64,000 bases of DNA from Bacteroidia bacterium. Lineage in GTDB: Bacteria; Bacteroidota; Bacteroidia; B-17B0; Aurantibacillaceae. The translations under genes were made by a program, and so were the position numbers. Location of the stretch: NCBI GenBank assembly GCA_016787705.1, contig JAEUTP010000015.1:62001-126000 (forward strand), in the 5' to 3' direction. The notes beneath the pieces were generated by a model, which saw nothing but the letters and a program-made list of their open reading frames with translations, did not search any database and was not told the DNA's origin. This document shows, one piece after another, positions 37,055 through 62,610 of the stretch. Within the stretch, counting starts at the first letter, position 1; the number at the start of each line of letters is the position of its first letter.

Positions 37055-37261
37055 GTGTTGTATTTTTTGTAAAATTAATTTTTTTGCTCTAAAAACAGCT
37101 ATTTAATTGGCTTTTATGCATTTGACAGAAGTTATTTTGACTTATGCTTTTCGACGAATAAAAAATTACTAAAAAATAGGAGATTTTATTGTTAATATAA
37201 TTTTTTGATTAATAACCAATTAGAAAAAAAGATTATCTTTAATGCCTGTTTCAAAATTTAT

Positions 37262-39358
37262 ATGTCTTCGATGAATTTAGTTCTTAACAGGACTAGTTAT
37301 TGTTTTTTATTTTTTTTCGCCACGCTTCTTTTTGTACCTGCGCAGGAAGACAATAAAGACGAGCTGGTATCGGGCTACATAAAAGTTTTAACCTCGCTTT
37401 GGGAAACATCTAACACAAAAACATTTGATACTTATATTGTAGATTCTACATTAACGCTGAAAACTGAACCGTTTAAAGTAATTAGTGACTCTGGTATTTA
37501 TCTTCAAAAAGAATTATTGCTTAAGCAAAATCATTTGCAACAACGCATCAACAAAAAAGATTTTGGATTGAAATATACATTAAACTATCAGGAAAATTTT
37601 AATTCACCCGTTGCTGATCCTTTAGAAATTGTTGTGTTTAAACGCCGAGCTGTTACAGGCTTTGAGTGGGACATTTTAAAAAGCGGTTTTTATGAAAGCA
37701 GAACAAAAAATAAAATTTTAAAATTGGAAGCCGAGGCGCTTGTAAAAAAACAATACACAAGCAACTTAAATGCTTTTACGGCGAAAAACACAGAACAAAT
37801 AATTCGCCATTTTAATGAAAAGAAAATTGACATTTTAAATGCAAGAAAAAAATTGAACGATGAGCAAACGGTAACCGTTGAAAAACTCTGGTCAATTAAG
37901 CATATTACAAAAGATGATTATTTAAAAGCTATTCAAAACACTACAGATATTAATGCTCAATATAACTTGTATAGAAATTACAACGAGGTTCAATTACCAA
38001 ACAGATCAAATTTTGATTTTGATCTTCCCATCTTGGATCTTGACCTTGCCAAACTTTTTCAAAGCGCCAATGTAACCCCGGTTGATACTTCGGCGCTTGT
38101 TCCAAATAGTCAAATTGCAAAACTTAAGTCGTCATTTATAAACGATATAAGTCTTAGCACTTATGCACGTTATAGTTACTACGATGTTTATAACGCCGGC
38201 TCTCCAAACCGTTCATTTCTATCGCTAGGCATGAATCTATCTGTGCCATTAACGTTTAATCAAAAAGAAAAAAGAGAATACTACACCATACAAGGACAGA
38301 TAGTAAACCAAAAAGAAGAAGTGGTTAATCATGACATACAGATAAACCTTTTAAACTATTATTACGAATACCAATATAAATTAAAACAATTTAAAAACTT
38401 ATATCATAAACGATTGGTGTTTTTAGAATTGCTGCGTACCGAGCGCGTAAAGAATGATCTGCATGATATGGAATTTAACCCAAACACCGCGCTTTTTATT
38501 TTGGACGATTACTGGAGCAATGCTATTGAGTTATTGGATCTTAAACAGGACATGTATAAAATTTTGTTGACGCTAAAAACAAAACTACCAAACGTTAGTA
38601 CAACCGATTATACAAAACCGCTTAACTTAAACAACCTCAACATTGCCTGGTCAAACCCTCCGTTTAAAGCTGTGTATGTTTGGAGCGATGCCTTTAAAAA
38701 TCATTCACAAACTGTAATTAATGAATACTGCAAAGTAAATGAGTTTAACCCGATCATACTTTCATACAACACATCTAAAGTTTATTTACAGGATGTTTCT
38801 GAATTTATTTCTAAAAATTATACTTCCAACATTCATTTAATGCTTGGCAGTAACAAATTATTGAACACAGGTGTTATTGGTTATTTAGATACTTTAAAAA
38901 GCAATGTTAAGCTTTCGTTTGTAAAAGGCATTCATTTAGACCTTGAGCCACACACTTTAAAGGATTTTAAAGAAAACAAAGAAAAAGCCTTTGAAAATTA
39001 TATTGCCATTGTTAAGCAGGCCAAAAAATTTGCAAATGATAACAAATTAGAACTGTCAGTATCCATCCCTTTAAGTTATCCTGAAAGTGTATTGGAAGAA
39101 TTAAACAAAACCTGTAACACCATTTATTTAATGGCCTACGAAAATGTTGATGTAGATTTTATCATCAAAAAATCTGCCGAAGAAAAAACCATCTTAAAAA
39201 CAAAATGTGTTTTAGCTTTGCGCACAAAAGATTTTGATAACAGAACAGATATGGATCAGCTCTTTAAAAAATTAGGTTTTGAAAAAACGGCATATCACGA
39301 TTTGGATGACCTTATCAAATTTGATAACACAAGTATTAACGTGAAGGAAGAAAAGTAA
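37262..39358 (+). CDS. outer-membrane TolC-like protein fused to a glycoside-hydrolase-like barrel
   Basis: The protein (about 698 residues) has a signal peptide (SYCFLFFFATLLFVPAQ), a TolC-like region (about 30-450) with long amphipathic helices and beta segments (DISLSTYARYSYYD; FLSLGMNLSVPLTF), and a C-terminal TIM-barrel-like domain (about 470-698). The C-terminal domain contains VKGIHLDLEPHTLKDF, with the acidic pair Asp560/Glu562 as in GH18- or GHL-type barrels, and TIYLMAYENVDVDF near a later strand. I use ATG 37262 (or 37271); the longer TTG-started frame from 37205 would put 19 residues before the signal. It opens a four-gene operon with a HlyD-like adaptor 1 bp downstream. Both domain calls rest on pattern, not on a database match. 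Confidence 0.65.
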   Translation: MSSMNLVLNRTSYCFLFFFATLLFVPAQEDNKDELVSGYIKVLTSLWETSNTKTFDTYIVDSTLTLKTEPFKVISDSGIYLQKELLLKQNHLQQRINKKDFGLKYTLNYQENFNSPVADPLEIVVFKRRAVTGFEWDILKSGFYESRTKNKILKLEAEALVKKQYTSNLNAFTAKNTEQIIRHFNEKKIDILNARKKLNDEQTVTVEKLWSIKHITKDDYLKAIQNTTDINAQYNLYRNYNEVQLPNRSNFDFDLPILDLDLAKLFQSANVTPVDTSALVPNSQIAKLKSSFINDISLSTYARYSYYDVYNAGSPNRSFLSLGMNLSVPLTFNQKEKREYYTIQGQIVNQKEEVVNHDIQINLLNYYYEYQYKLKQFKNLYHKRLVFLELLRTERVKNDLHDMEFNPNTALFILDDYWSNAIELLDLKQDMYKILLTLKTKLPNVSTTDYTKPLNLNNLNIAWSNPPFKAVYVWSDAFKNHSQTVINEYCKVNEFNPIILSYNTSKVYLQDVSEFISKNYTSNIHLMLGSNKLLNTGVIGYLDTLKSNVKLSFVKGIHLDLEPHTLKDFKENKEKAFENYIAIVKQAKKFANDNKLELSVSIPLSYPESVLEELNKTCNTIYLMAYENVDVDFIIKKSAEEKTILKTKCVLALRTKDFDNRTDMDQLFKKLGFEKTAYHDLDDLIKFDNTSINVKEEK

Positions 39359-39359
39359 A

Positions 39360-40487
39360 ATGAAAAGTGTAAACTTTCAAAGGAACAAAGCATTAATAAG
39401 AGTTGTTAATGAACAAAAAGTAAAAAAACAACGCAACTGGGATAGGATTCTGTATTTAGGCCTTCTTGGTCTGTTTCTTGTATTTGTAATTTATTATTTG
39501 GTAACAAAATATTTATTTATTCATGCTTACGGCCATGTTATTATCGAAAGCACACGTATTCGTTTAACCGACGACGCGCGCATTATTGAGTTTTATGTAA
39601 AAGAAGGAGACAGAATAGAGCAAAACGACACACTTTTTTCTTACGCTTTAGATAGAGATGATGACATCAGCGGCAACTCATCCTATGCGCAATCGGTTAA
39701 TATTGGCTCAATAGAAGGTGGCTCGCGTGATGATTGGTGGGTAAAAGAAATTTATGCTTTAAAGAAAAAAATAGCTTTAAATAATATTGAGATCTCAGAG
39801 AACGAGAATTTAATTTCAGGTTATAAGAAAGAAATAAAACGCATTTCAAACGAAGTTATTTTAGATGTATTACCAAAAACACGTTTAGAATATATTCAAA
39901 ACGAAATGGTAAACCTTCACGTTCAAAACAAAAAACTCGAAAAAGAAAATAAAGAACTTAACAGCTTAATGAAAAGTCTTGGCCCTTCTAAAAAAACAAG
40001 AAAAATTAACGGCGTTAATATCCGTACCAAAAAAGGCGGTGGCGGCGCAGGCGACAAACAAGGGGTACAAAGATTAGATTTTAGCGAAGAGCTGTTAACG
40101 CAGGCAAAATATTTTAGATCGCCGGTTAACGGTATTGCCACGCGTATTTATATTCATACTTATGAAACCGCTTTAAAAAGCGAAGAAATAATGGCCGTTC
40201 ATGAAGGAGAGCCCGCTTACATTAAAGCTTATTTTGAACAGGAGGATCTTCGTCATTTTAAAGAAGGTGATCTTTTTTCAATCGAGTTTCCAGATGGAAC
40301 AGTAAGCAAAGGCATTTTAAAGCGTTTTTATATTGCCACCTATACTTTACCTGAAGAATTTCAGAAAAAATATGAACCAACAACCCGTAGTATTGCCGCG
40401 GATATTTATCCGATAGATTCTTTGGAAATAAAGAAATGGAAAACCTTCTACAAAATGAGTGTAGATATTTCTAAACTAAAATTGTAA
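39360..40487 (+). CDS. HlyD/Alg44-like membrane-fusion (adaptor) protein
   Basis: The 375-residue protein has a short cytoplasmic N-terminus, one transmembrane helix (about 30-50), a lipoyl/barrel-sandwich half (IRLTDDARIIEFYVKEGDRI), a coiled-coil hairpin (about 125-215), the returning half (FRSPVNGIATRIYIHTYETA) and a beta-barrel region (AYIKAYFEQEDLRHFKEGD). This is the layout of the periplasmic adaptor of tripartite export systems and of the Alg44 HlyD part. There is no PilZ domain. It is 1 bp after the TolC-like gene and 5 bp before the regulator gene, and no ABC or RND pump is encoded, so the glycosyltransferase is the likely inner-membrane partner. Confidence 0.83.
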   Translation: MKSVNFQRNKALIRVVNEQKVKKQRNWDRILYLGLLGLFLVFVIYYLVTKYLFIHAYGHVIIESTRIRLTDDARIIEFYVKEGDRIEQNDTLFSYALDRDDDISGNSSYAQSVNIGSIEGGSRDDWWVKEIYALKKKIALNNIEISENENLISGYKKEIKRISNEVILDVLPKTRLEYIQNEMVNLHVQNKKLEKENKELNSLMKSLGPSKKTRKINGVNIRTKKGGGGAGDKQGVQRLDFSEELLTQAKYFRSPVNGIATRIYIHTYETALKSEEIMAVHEGEPAYIKAYFEQEDLRHFKEGDLFSIEFPDGTVSKGILKRFYIATYTLPEEFQKKYEPTTRSIAADIYPIDSLEIKKWKTFYKMSVDISKLKL

Positions 40488-40492
40488 TTGTG

Positions 40493-41932
40493 ATGGAGAC
40501 ATTAGTAAAAAACAAGTTTGAGTTCCACAACAACGTTCTAAATTTTTCGAATAAGGTATTTTATTATATCGAAAGTTTTAGTTCATTAAAAATAGACGCG
40601 CTCGGAAAATACGATGCCATTATTTTAGATGCGCGCGACATTGAATTTGCGCGCATTATTCTGAAAAAATTCAGAAGCCATTCTAACATTGAATTTTATT
40701 TAAAACCCATTTTTTTAATTAACAGCAAAAGTAACGAAGACCCTTTATTAAAAGAGTTGATTGATGGCATTATTGTATCGTTTGATCAGATCCCGGAAAC
40801 AATAAACGACATTAACCAGATAAATTTAAAGACCGCTCAGCTGGAAAGCTCCACATCCAATTCTTTTGAGATACAGTTATTTAAAAAGGTGTTAAACTTT
40901 ATGTTTACCCGCGAAACAAATACGTTTACGCCTCACACAGACATTAATTCGGCAATGGGTTACTGTTATCCTACAGTATCTGTAAATTTTGAAACCTTCG
41001 AAGAAGTAAAAGTATTGGAGCTATTAGAATGGGCAGAAAAAGAAAATTTGATCTGGCCTGATTTTTTTGATCGTGTTTATTTATGTAATAACTGTAAAGG
41101 TGGCCATTTATCTTATCGCGAGATCTGTCCCCATTGCGACTCTGCGAACATGCGCTCTGAAGATCTTGTACATCATTTTCCTTGCGGTTATATTGGTGCT
41201 ATAAGCGATTTTAAGAATAATGTAGATACGGTTTTAAACTGCCCAAAATGCACAAAAAATTTAAGGCATATCGGCGTTGATTATGATAAGCCTTCTATTA
41301 TCAATCATTGTCAAAATTGTAATGAGGTTTTCCAGGATTATTTGGTAAAGGCCAAATGTACACATTGCAAAACAGATAGTGATGTTCAGTTCTTACTTTC
41401 TAAAAATATAAACGTTTACAAGCTTACTAAAAAAGGAAGAACAGCCGCCGTGGGTGGAATTTCCGCATCTGATTTTACTTTAAGTGATGAGGTTTTTGGA
41501 ACGGTGAATTTAAAAACATTTGCCACCATGATGCATTACGAACAAGAGCGTATAAAAAATAACACTTTGTTAAATGCCAATGTAGTAATTATTTATATTG
41601 AAAATATTTTTGATCTCTATCGAAAAATTGGTAAATCGAAAGAGCGTGAATTACTTGCAGAATTCGTGAACATTGTACGTGATAATATTACCCCTGCCGA
41701 TTTTATTTGTATTAATAACCCATCAGTACTAAGTGTTTGTATTAATGATGCGCCTTTGGCAAATGCCGAGTTAATGGTTTCAAAAATCAGTAATAAACTA
41801 AAAGAACTGGTTGCAAATAATTTTGATGGATTTGAATTGAATATATTAACACAAACCGAAATATTAAGTAAAGAACAATCTTTCGATAAACAATTGCATC
41901 ATTTAATTAAAGATATTGTTGAGAAGGGATGA
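40493..41932 (+). CDS. TackOD1-type zinc-ribbon regulator with degenerate GGDEF-like domain
   Basis: The 479-residue cytosolic protein has a receiver-like N-terminus (KYDAIILDARDIEFARIIL), a helical linker, then a cysteine-rich region (about 198-292). This region has CxxC pairs at about 198/201, 212/215, 250/253, 273/276 and 289/292, and the segments LSYREICPHCDSANMRSED and LRHIGVDYDKPSI. That matches what I know of the TackOD1 (thaumarchaeal output domain 1) zinc domain. The C-terminal part (about 360-479) has GGDEF-like secondary structure, but the active-site loop reads PADFICINNPSVLSVCI with no GGDEF motif, so cyclase activity is unlikely. GTG 40490 is an alternative start. The stop overlaps the glycosyltransferase start by four bases. 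Confidence 0.78.
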   Translation: METLVKNKFEFHNNVLNFSNKVFYYIESFSSLKIDALGKYDAIILDARDIEFARIILKKFRSHSNIEFYLKPIFLINSKSNEDPLLKELIDGIIVSFDQIPETINDINQINLKTAQLESSTSNSFEIQLFKKVLNFMFTRETNTFTPHTDINSAMGYCYPTVSVNFETFEEVKVLELLEWAEKENLIWPDFFDRVYLCNNCKGGHLSYREICPHCDSANMRSEDLVHHFPCGYIGAISDFKNNVDTVLNCPKCTKNLRHIGVDYDKPSIINHCQNCNEVFQDYLVKAKCTHCKTDSDVQFLLSKNINVYKLTKKGRTAAVGGISASDFTLSDEVFGTVNLKTFATMMHYEQERIKNNTLLNANVVIIYIENIFDLYRKIGKSKERELLAEFVNIVRDNITPADFICINNPSVLSVCINDAPLANAELMVSKISNKLKELVANNFDGFELNILTQTEILSKEQSFDKQLHHLIKDIVEKG

Positions 41933-43239
41933 TAGACGCTTTTGACGAATTTATAAACTACATTACTACGGTTGGTCCGCTAAAATTATTGCGCATCTTC
42001 TGGTTCTTTGTTTTTTTTGAGTTCGCGCGTTTCTTTTTGTTTGAATTATTTGTTGTTATTGTATGGAAAATAAGAGAGCCGGTTCGTAAAAAATTGTATG
42101 CCAACGCGCGCAGAAGATTGTTTATTGAGCGGCCTTTGGTATCTGTTATTGTGCCAGGAAAAAACGAGGGACTGCATATTTATAAATTAGCCAACTCCCT
42201 TAAAGAACAAACTTATAAAAATTTTGAATTTATTGTTATTGACGACGGATCTGATGATGATACGGAGCGCATTTGTAAAAGCCTGCAAAAAAACGGGTTC
42301 ATAGATTTGTTTTTAAGAAATGAAGTGCGCGGTGGAAAAGCCTCTGCCGCCAATTTAGGTTACCGCTTTTCAAAAGGCACCATTATCGTTCATTTAGATG
42401 CCGATTGCAGTTATGATAACGATGCGCTCGAAAAAATTATTATTCCGTTTTATTTGGATGATAATGTTGGCTCGGTAGGCGGAAATATTTTAGTGAGAAA
42501 CTATCGCGAAAATTTATGTACCACATTACAAGCAATTGAATATTCTGATACCATTTCTGTTGGCCGCATCACCTCCAGCGCTTTAGGCATTTACCGTGTT
42601 GTATCAGGCGCTTTTGGTGCCTTTAAGCGCGAGGCATTAGACCGCGTGGGCGGCTGGGATATAGGACCCGGGTTGGACGGAGACATTACCGTTAAATTAA
42701 GAAAGTTGGGTTATAGAATTGTGTTTGAGCCGGAAGCCATTTGCCAGACAAGCGTACCAAATTCATTTCGTAAATTGGTAAAACAACGTTTACGCTGGGA
42801 TAAATCTATTATTCGTTTCCGAGTAAGAAAACACCGCGATGTGTTTTATCCTAATGCAACCTTTAGTTTTTCTAATTTTGTGTCTAGTGCCGAGAATATT
42901 ACTTATAACTTGTTGCTAAATATCAAATGGTGGTTCTATTTAATTGATATGGTTATGCATTACACATCTTTATTGTGGTTCATTTTTCCATTTAACATTT
43001 TATTGTATACCATAAATAATTTCTTAAAATTTCTTATCTTTTCTTTATTCCGTAATAGAAAAAATGCGCCTGTTATTTATTTTATTCCTTACCTACCTTT
43101 AATGGTTATTTACTTTGGTTATTATTTACGTTTGGTAAGATCGGTAGCCTATATACAGGAGTTTTTCTTTAAACGCTCTTATAAAGACGCGTGGAATCCT
43201 CAAAAATCTTCATCACACGCTAAAGAGTTAGGCATTTAA
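41929..43239 (+). CDS. processive family-2 glycosyltransferase (exopolysaccharide synthase-like)
   Basis: The 436-residue membrane protein has an N-terminal transmembrane segment (about 18-46), a cytosolic GT2 domain (about 70-300) and three or so C-terminal membrane segments. The processive-synthase motifs are all visible: DDGSDDD, HLDADCS (DxD at 157-159), GLDGDITVKL (TED-like acid), and QRLRW (286-290). It belongs with the Alg8/PgaC/HasA/BcsA type rather than with transferases that add a single sugar. It ends the four-gene operon and overlaps the regulator by four bases. The polymer is unknown. Confidence 0.88.
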   Translation: MIDAFDEFINYITTVGPLKLLRIFWFFVFFEFARFFLFELFVVIVWKIREPVRKKLYANARRRLFIERPLVSVIVPGKNEGLHIYKLANSLKEQTYKNFEFIVIDDGSDDDTERICKSLQKNGFIDLFLRNEVRGGKASAANLGYRFSKGTIIVHLDADCSYDNDALEKIIIPFYLDDNVGSVGGNILVRNYRENLCTTLQAIEYSDTISVGRITSSALGIYRVVSGAFGAFKREALDRVGGWDIGPGLDGDITVKLRKLGYRIVFEPEAICQTSVPNSFRKLVKQRLRWDKSIIRFRVRKHRDVFYPNATFSFSNFVSSAENITYNLLLNIKWWFYLIDMVMHYTSLLWFIFPFNILLYTINNFLKFLIFSLFRNRKNAPVIYFIPYLPLMVIYFGYYLRLVRSVAYIQEFFFKRSYKDAWNPQKSSSHAKELGI

Positions 43240-43438: not shown

Positions 43439-43717
43439 TTGGCGGGCGTTTTAGCCGGAGTAGCCTTATTTATGATGCCCTTTTTATTAATTAAAGTGCT
43501 CATCTTTTTCTTATTAATTAAAGCAATTTTTCGCTTAATGGGCGGACGCAGGCGCCATCACCACTGGCAATATGCTTATGCTCATAAATATAAGAACATG
43601 AGCGAGGAAGAGCGTGCGGCTTTTATGCTAAAGTATAATAATCGCTGCGGATGGAATTCAAAATGGGAACATTGCGAACCGGAAAGCGAAGGCAAAAACA
43701 AAACAACAAACATTTAA
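43439..43717 (+). CDS. small membrane protein, 5' end interrupted by a stop
   Basis: The 92-residue frame begins with TTG and has one or two hydrophobic segments (LAGVLAGVALFMMPFLLI; LIFFLLIKAIFRLM), then a basic/His-rich stretch (GGRRRHHHWQYAYAHKYK) and an acidic tail (MSEEERAAFMLKYNNRCGW). In the same frame upstream, ATG at 43412 reads ATG ATA AAA TAA, followed by CTT TTA AAA ACA GTA. The natural start would thus give MIK-stop-LLKTVLAG, suggesting a nonsense change at codon 4 and a restart at TTG 43439. I do not recognise a family. Confidence 0.5.
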   Translation: MAGVLAGVALFMMPFLLIKVLIFFLLIKAIFRLMGGRRRHHHWQYAYAHKYKNMSEEERAAFMLKYNNRCGWNSKWEHCEPESEGKNKTTNI

Positions 43718-43733
43718 TGTAAAAAAATTACTT

Positions 43734-43937
43734 ATGAAAAAAGGAACAAAAATAACAGTGTTTATAGCCAGCATGGCATTAACTGTAGGAAGCTTATTTG
43801 CATTTGTTGGTCCGCGCCATTGCGGACAACATGGCGTTTACAGGCATTGTAATAAAGCGAACGGTTATACTGATCATCATGGGAATTGTGTAAATTGGAA
43901 CGATCGCTCTGATGTCGACGGCGCAAGGGTAAATTAG
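43734..43937 (+). CDS. small secreted His/Cys-rich protein
   Basis: The 67-residue protein has a signal peptide (VFIASMALTVGSLFAF) and a short mature part rich in His and Cys (RHCGQHGVYRHCN and DHHGNCVNW), which could bind metal. It begins 17 bp after the preceding small membrane protein gene, and the two may form a unit downstream of the polysaccharide operon. No family is recognised. A TGTCA-armed hairpin follows. Confidence 0.55.
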   Translation: MKKGTKITVFIASMALTVGSLFAFVGPRHCGQHGVYRHCNKANGYTDHHGNCVNWNDRSDVDGARVN

Positions 43938-61623: not shown

Positions 61624-62610
61624 ATGAAAGATATTATATTAAATAAAGGTTGGTTAAATATTAAGGTTGATCCTGCACTTGATTTGATCAAAGAAATAAA
61701 TTATCTTAAAAAGGAAAAGAATGCCGTGATCCTTGCGCACTACTATCAAAATGCTGACATACAGGATATTGCCGATTATATTGGCGATTCTTTAGGTCTT
61801 GCCCAAGAGGCTCAAAAAACTAAATCAGATATTATTTTGTTTGCCGGTGTACATTTTATGGCTGAAACAGCTAAAATTTTAAATCCAAATAAAAAAGTTT
61901 TGATCCCCGATCTTAAAGCTGGTTGTTCGTTAGCGGATTCTTGCCCTCCAAACGAATTTGCGGCTTTTAATGCCAAACATCCTGATCATATTGTTATTAC
62001 TTACATTAACTGTACTGCAGATATTAAAGCCCTTTCAGATATAATTTGCACCAGTTCTAATGCGGTTCAAATTATTGAGAGCTTACCTGCAAATCAAAAA
62101 ATAATATTTGCGCCGGATAAAAATTTAGGTGCTTATATTAATAAAAAAACCGGTCGTAATATGGTATTATGGGATGGTGCCTGTATGGTTCACGAAATAT
62201 TTAGTTTAGAAAAATTAATTAAATTAAAGATTCAACATCCAAAAGCATTGGTATTAGCGCATCCTGAATGTGAAGCGCCAATTTTAGAACATGCAGATTT
62301 TATTGGAAGCACAACAGCCATTCTTAATTATTCTAAAAAATCAGAAAAAAAAGAATTTATTGTTGTAACCGAAACAGGTATACTTCATCAAATGCAAAAA
62401 AATAGTCCGGATAAAACTTTTATACCTGCACCGCCAAATAATAATTGTGCCTGTAACGATTGTCCGTACATGAAGTTAAATACTTTAGAAAAAATTTATG
62501 TGGCTTTAAAACACGAGCAGCCCGAATTATTAATGAGTAACGAATTAATTGAAAAAGCAAAAAAACCTATTTTAAAAATGCTTGAATTATCGGCAAAATT
62601 TGGATTATAA
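61624..62610 (+). CDS. nadA: quinolinate synthase A
   Basis: The 328-residue [4Fe-4S] enzyme condenses iminoaspartate with dihydroxyacetone phosphate in NAD synthesis. Motifs are [35 protein letters not shown], the conserved [12 protein letters not shown] region with the upstream Cys in [14 protein letters not shown], and the C-terminal cluster-site segment [19 protein letters not shown]. nadB and nadC are not adjacent. It follows a long AT-rich leader region. Confidence 0.95.

Follow-up and report, generated by a model that had tools for sequence, protein, structure and literature searches.

In the synthase-dependent exopolysaccharide systems described so far, the polymer exits by beta-barrel porins with outer-membrane TPR/Sel1 repeat scaffolds (PMC9384988). 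Next to these systems, a tripartite cellulose secretion system composed of XcsA, XcsB and TolC was proposed for Thermosynechococcus, although this model is unproven (Maeda 2018, as presented in the review PMC12430437). The same review, published in 2025, asks whether the TolC route applies to clusters organised as operons (PMC12430437). Here, we describe an operon of four genes at positions 37262–43239 of a window of 64,000 nucleotides (positions 62001–126000 of contig C21) within a Bacteroidota genome of 4.5 Mb, which quite probably encodes a synthase-dependent exopolysaccharide machine exporting its product via an adaptor-TolC duct. XcsAB-TolC is the sole TolC-route precedent found, and the operon bears on the question raised by this proposed but unproven route for cyanobacterial cellulose.

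The four open reading frames lie on the forward (+) strand, are all intact and are separated by gaps of 1, 2 and −4 bp, in agreement with a preliminary description of this DNA that presented them as tightly packed. They are predicted to encode a TolC-like outer-membrane protein (OMP) with a GH18-like tail (gene 1, 37262–39358, 698 amino acids), a periplasmic adaptor of the HlyD/EmrA type (gene 2, 39360–40487, 375 amino acids), a cytosolic protein combining a degenerate receiver (REC*), a TackOD1 and a degenerate GGDEF (GGDEF*) domain (gene 3, 40490–41932, 480 amino acids) and a PgaC-like synthase of the GT2 family (gene 4, 41929–43239, 436 amino acids). The 207 bp between the start of a divergent gene (37054) and gene 1 presumably contain the promoter of the operon (37055–37261, + strand). 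A Pfam scan of the quartet revealed no ABC, RND, PilZ, deacetylase or Wza/Wzc gene, the lack of which had also been claimed before, and no TPR match in the four proteins. Instead of a beta-barrel porin with a TPR/Sel1 scaffold, the only outer-membrane protein of the operon has a predicted TolC fold.

Comparison with the closest systems shows shared parts and clear differences in each case. XcsAB-TolC resembles the operon in its proposed export route, which joins a processive GT2 to an HlyD-like adaptor and a channel of the TolC type, but its genes are scattered, its cellulose synthase carries a PilZ domain and its endoglucanase XcsC is separate (PMC12430437). In contrast, here all parts are present in one operon with a PgaC-like synthase, a TolC-like protein extended by a fused GH18-like tail, and a TackOD1 regulator. 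PgaABCD, the PNAG system, is similar in that PgaC is the nearest named synthase family and the C-terminal hydrolase domain of PgaB has the same fold as the tail; however, the TPR and beta-barrel porin PgaA, the PgaB deacetylase and PgaD, the partner for cyclic di-GMP (c-di-GMP), were not found in the operon. The alginate system Alg8-Alg44-AlgK-AlgE likewise combines a synthase with an HlyD-type periplasmic partner (Alg44), whereas the PilZ domain of Alg44, the beta-barrel porin AlgE and the TPR-type AlgK have no counterpart in the operon. In the literature covered, from which most subscription papers fall outside, no described operon of the same four-part composition was found, so that its designation as uncharacterised stands within this coverage. 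The idea of a TolC conduit in place of beta-barrel porins, also put forward in the preliminary description, has a published precedent in general terms in XcsAB-TolC (PMC12430437).

Searching each protein against profile databases gave clear Pfam matches for the TackOD1 and GT2 proteins and was insufficient for genes 1 and 2, for which family profiles or a structural model were needed. The assignment of gene 1 as an outer-membrane protein of predicted TolC fold is based on an AlphaFold model of the monomer, built with 52 sequences (predicted local distance difference test score, pLDDT, of 86), in which a pair of beta-strands leading into long helices occurs twice. In Foldseek searches with this model the first matches were TolC, CusC and OprM-type channels with E-values down to 2e-12, and VIA-align aligned it to TolC (7ng9) with a Z-score of 18.6 and a root-mean-square deviation (rmsd) of 4.9 over 364 residues; the fold-search lists were dominated by one domain at a time and missing families were given no weight. 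The matches place the TolC-fold region at residues 70–448 (37469–38605, + strand) and speak against the possibility, raised in the preliminary description, that the first gene is not TolC-like. The two-repeat strand-helix fold and a signal peptide are shared with TolC and the OEP factors, from which gene 1 differs by its C-terminal barrel and by having no pump partner in the operon. Two OMP homologues of 880 amino acids (L099:805-3450 and L100:5177-7837) carry an N-terminal YCF48/BNR propeller ahead of the TolC part.

The C-terminal approximately 230 residues of gene 1 (residues 466–694; 38657–39343, + strand) form a barrel in the model with Z-scores of 17–19 to GH18 proteins and the C-terminal hydrolase domain of PgaB, which specifies the glycoside-hydrolase-like tail reported earlier as a GH18/PgaB-GH153-type barrel by fold. 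In GH18 enzymes, the fourth strand bears the catalytic DxE motif and the sixth the MxY motif. The gene 1 model positions D560 and E562 directly past strand 4 and M624-x-Y626 where strand 6 ends, and from this strand order we infer that they correspond to the GH18 catalytic positions. Moreover, the tail-bearing relatives share W474, D560, E562, M624, Y626, D657 and D680 without exception (49/49). The full DxxDxDxE motif is not present, the first Asp of DxDxE being His558, and Pfam gave no glycoside hydrolase match for the tail. The best single fold match of the barrel is IDGF-2, which we take to be non-catalytic, and therefore the fold alone is no proof of hydrolase activity; the invariant acidic pair argues for the tail being active. 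Among 247 Bacteroidota genomes the barrel is restricted to the OMP of the operon, apart from one weak match.

For gene 2, Pfam gave no HlyD match, but a profile made from the protein and 13 relatives matched the EmrA/MacA adaptors in the PDB with an E-value of 2e-6, and the match to type_I_hlyD (9e-6) was below the cut-off. The protein has a single N-terminal transmembrane helix (residues 30–48), and judged by its profile, which resembles EmrA, MacA and HlyD, it can be classified as an adaptor of the HlyD/EmrA type, the preliminary description having proposed an HlyD/Alg44-like one.

The product of gene 4 matches Pfam Glycos_transf_2 with an E-value of 4e-27, has about five transmembrane segments by estimate, and the motifs D105/D106, D157/D159, D252 and Q286xxRW are invariant in 14 relatives. 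The nearest named family is PgaC_IcaA (2e-48), with a score of 165 bits that stays below the equivalog cut-off of 422 bits, and a profile search against the PDB returned chondroitin, hyaluronan and cellulose synthases among the matches; as in the preliminary description, the GT2 is of the processive synthase type. With this score and no deacetylase domain in the operon, assignment to PgaC or to a pga operon is not supported. Membership in the bcs/XcsA group was ruled out by a CelA score of 24 bits (cut-off 699) and the lacking PilZ domain, and Sinorhizobium BgsBA was considered as a likeness, the paper on which is silent on an outer-membrane partner. A related GT2 domain, outside the group in the tree, occurs in very large proteins (>1100 amino acids) on plasmids of Prevotella nigrescens (L185:730-4137) and Deinococcus (L187:191-3640).

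Gene 3 had been described as a zinc-ribbon cytosolic regulator. The zinc domain was identified by Pfam as TackOD1 (PF18551; residues 131–312; 40880–41425, + strand) with an E-value of 6e-51 and 173 bits against a cut-off of 32, while the two domains flanking it, a receiver and a GGDEF domain that are both degenerate, had been overlooked. A profile of 14 relatives matched the GGDEF domain of DgcR (1e-10, residues 333–440) and, at the N-terminus, receiver domains. In the model (pLDDT 89), the GGDEF domain (residues 333–480; 41486–41929, + strand) aligns to DosC with a Z-score of 18.6 and an rmsd of 2.3 over 146 residues, some rows spanning the receiver too. The GG(D/E)EF motif is missing in 50/50 aligned proteins, by which an active diguanylate cyclase was rejected. 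Of the I-site, the Asp is kept in 46/50 and the Arg three residues before in 22/50, the protein of the window having Thr for Arg. The 14 carrier genomes of Bacteroidota searched yielded no canonical GGDEF protein (14/14 without), the sole match being gene 3 itself in one genome. This makes GGDEF-made c-di-GMP, and thereby canonical c-di-GMP control, unlikely in the Bacteroidota hosts checked, and shows that degenerate GGDEF domains are retained in genomes without canonical GGDEF proteins.

BcsE and PelD are degenerate REC/GGDEF regulators of the cellulose and Pel systems. Both are named in PMC5567048, and what they share with gene 3 is a degenerate GGDEF regulator whose gene accompanies that of a polysaccharide synthase; gene 3 differs by TackOD1 between receiver and GGDEF* and by hosts without canonical GGDEF proteins. 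Gene 3 looks like an input module with a role as that of BcsE or PelD and with phosphorelay input in several lineages: in family f24, REC* is a separate gene of about 110 amino acids and the gene 3 receiver retains the phosphorylation residues, and in Roseibium (L147) an intact receiver on gene 3 is followed by Hpt genes. TackOD1 was named as output domain of archaeal response regulators with an obscure function (PMC5847659), and the operon provides a first functional setting for this zinc domain. As further observations, genes for a receiver-HPt protein and a response regulator of the LytTR type are located immediately 5' of the OMP gene in a clade with a TviB-like gene (L024:1736-3093), and a histidine kinase of the HisKA_2 type is repeatedly encoded in the vicinity of the operon, with varying strand (L117:11697-12887 and approximately 24 other loci).

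Conservation of the gene order was analysed in a scan of 84,980 species genomes, which yielded 316 relatives of gene 3; the best 80 of these 316, ranked by similarity to gene 3 of the window, were kept, and the locus counts refer to these 80 and not to the more distant 236. The order OMP-HlyD-Tack-GT2 on one strand is present in 72/80 loci, the remaining eight being truncated by contig ends, so that the co-occurrence in the same order across Bacteroidota, which the preliminary description had left to be checked, was established, with a rearranged form in Pseudomonadota. This conservation is far beyond chance. The median gaps are 2, 3 and −1 bp, gaps of ≤30 bp are found within the quartet in nearly all loci, and the Tack and GT2 genes overlap or abut in 64/78, suggesting that gene 3 and the synthase are translationally coupled. 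TackOD1 scores over the cut-off were found at 11 loci in 10/247 Bacteroidota genomes including that of the window, and the quartet is present at 11/11. In the genus of the window, the adaptor is found in 12/37 genomes with its partners alongside wherever contigs permit. Since the operon unites all parts in a single transcription unit and its carriers include cultured bacteria, among them Crocinitomix catalasitica (L118) and Brumimicrobium glaciale (L129), the question of the TolC route becomes testable by single deletions. One contig labelled Candidatus Kuenenia (L138) carries a Bacteroidota-type quartet, its label apparently being wrong or the contig misbinned.

Other phyla were surveyed through plasmid records. 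Pseudomonadota plasmids of Plesiomonas, Photobacterium, Aminobacter, Phyllobacterium, Roseibium and Rhodobacteraceae M382 (the latter with galE) carry the order Tack-GT2-HlyD. On a plasmid of Methylocystis iwaonis (L149) this order is followed by a separate secreted homologue of the barrel and then by a true TolC (Pfam OEP 8e-47). The secreted protein matches the barrel tail by hhalign with an E-value of 1.4e-8 over 225 columns and keeps HFDVEP, MSY and HDYDSL; therefore, a cluster of this kind can encode the two halves of gene 1 separately, by adjacent genes. Of all observations, this arrangement argues most strongly for hydrolase, TolC, adaptor, synthase and gene 3 belonging to one system. 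In the GT2 tree the Tack-linked GT2s of Bacteroidota and Pseudomonadota are joined at a support of only 84/70, and a single origin of the Tack-GT2 pairing is therefore not proven. Moreover, TackOD1-GT2-HlyD is found on a mobilizable plasmid of 29 kb in Aeromonas caviae (L146, NZ_AP024951.1), so the synthesis module can pass between strains, and Sinorhizobium medicae has a reduced cluster with consecutive genes for GT2, HlyD and a short TackOD1 protein that stands alone (L150:6863-9454).

In the machine proposed here, the GT2 synthase of the inner membrane would build the chain from a nucleotide sugar and pass it through its own membrane pore; the HlyD-type adaptor would span the periplasm and dock on a TolC-like trimer, through which the chain would exit the cell. 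PgaB, PelA, BcsZ and AlgL are thought to trim the chain or to clear escaped polymer, and the GH18-like hydrolase, which would hang off the C-terminus of each TolC-like subunit in the periplasm outside of the duct, might act in a comparable way. The C-termini of TolC are periplasmic and near the equatorial domain, so the barrels would ring the exterior of the duct, and clean-up or length control fits better than threading. The REC*-TackOD1-GGDEF* protein would regulate the synthase, its input coming from a phosphorelay in some lineages and, in Pseudomonadota, perhaps from c-di-GMP. Fold, gene order and parts support the synthase-dependent pathway with a TolC-style conduit that had been suggested for this DNA, and the direct contact of synthase and duct is suggested by gene linkage. 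With somewhat less assurance, yet on the favoured side, the operon may represent a dedicated operon-encoded class in which a GT2 feeds an HlyD-TolC duct directly, the channel carries the hydrolase as a fusion and the TackOD1 regulator of Bacteroidota acts independently of c-di-GMP; this class would occur in Bacteroidota and, in rearranged form, in Pseudomonadota.

Several findings weigh against this proposal. The Pfam OEP/TolC match of gene 1 is marginal (E-value 3e-4; 21 bits with the cut-off at 22), the genome search giving 24.3 bits and the relative L099 24.7 bits. An hhalign comparison of the OMP family with a single Methylocystis TolC gave no match and the OMP-family profile did not find TolC among PDB sequences, because of which the kinship to TolC rests on fold. 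Furthermore, the polysaccharide chain has to pass the TolC pore, which is an unproven capacity. The OMPs of L022–L024 have no tail and those of L021 and L028 retain remnants only, and hydrolysis is therefore dispensable in some lineages. Finally, no TolC is encoded close to most of the Pseudomonadota clusters seen, which may instead rely on a housekeeping TolC.

The HlyD-TolC pair might alternatively work with an unlinked pump as a duct for efflux or type I secretion, carrying a small molecule or a protein, the GT2 only glycosylating the exported molecule or a lipid. In all proven cases, HlyD and TolC families are known to work with ABC, RND or MFS pumps (PMC8277102), and the host genome encodes many further TolC-family proteins; however, the window quartet contains no pump by Pfam and is closely spaced nearly everywhere, its GT2 is of the processive synthase type and a glycoside hydrolase is fused or adjacent, which makes such a duct very improbable. 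Likewise, gene 3 could be a transcription or general signalling protein merely sharing the operon. Its co-occurrence with GT2 and HlyD in two phyla and two gene orders, the overlap or abutment with the GT2 gene described above and the lack of a DNA-binding domain by Pfam render this improbable, even though TackOD1 was named as a response-regulator output domain of archaea without known function (PMC5847659) and the single archaeal TackOD1 gene inspected sits away from GT2 genes.

Regarding the product of the proposed export machine, a polymer containing N-acetylhexosamine is the most likely one, though still a guess, to which the PgaC-like synthase, the GH18-like barrel and a TviB-like gene in a subclade each point. 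The latter, encoding a TviB-like UDP-GlcNAc dehydrogenase (470 bits, cut-off 592), is located between HlyD and Tack in L021–L024, with a large lipoprotein also inserted there in L022–L024. A cellulose-like polymer or other glucan has its precedent in XcsAB-TolC, which makes cellulose (PMC12430437), and the substrate of a GT2 is not readable from sequence; against this stand the CelA score far below that for PgaC_IcaA, the GH18/PgaB-type barrel and the dehydrogenase of the subclade, so that a glucan seems rather unlikely.

In the surroundings of the operon in the window, two small open reading frames 3' of it (43439–43936) encode a His-rich membrane protein of 92 amino acids and a short secreted protein, neither with a family match (Pfam for the His-rich protein). 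The nearest longer neighbours on both flanks are in opposite orientation and by sequence reading are without resemblance to polymer genes. In 19 of the loci, including L114:11724-14735, a protein with CotH-kinase and lamin-tail (LTD) domains and a sorting domain of the type IX secretion system (T9SS) is encoded directly 3' of the GT2 gene on the same strand.

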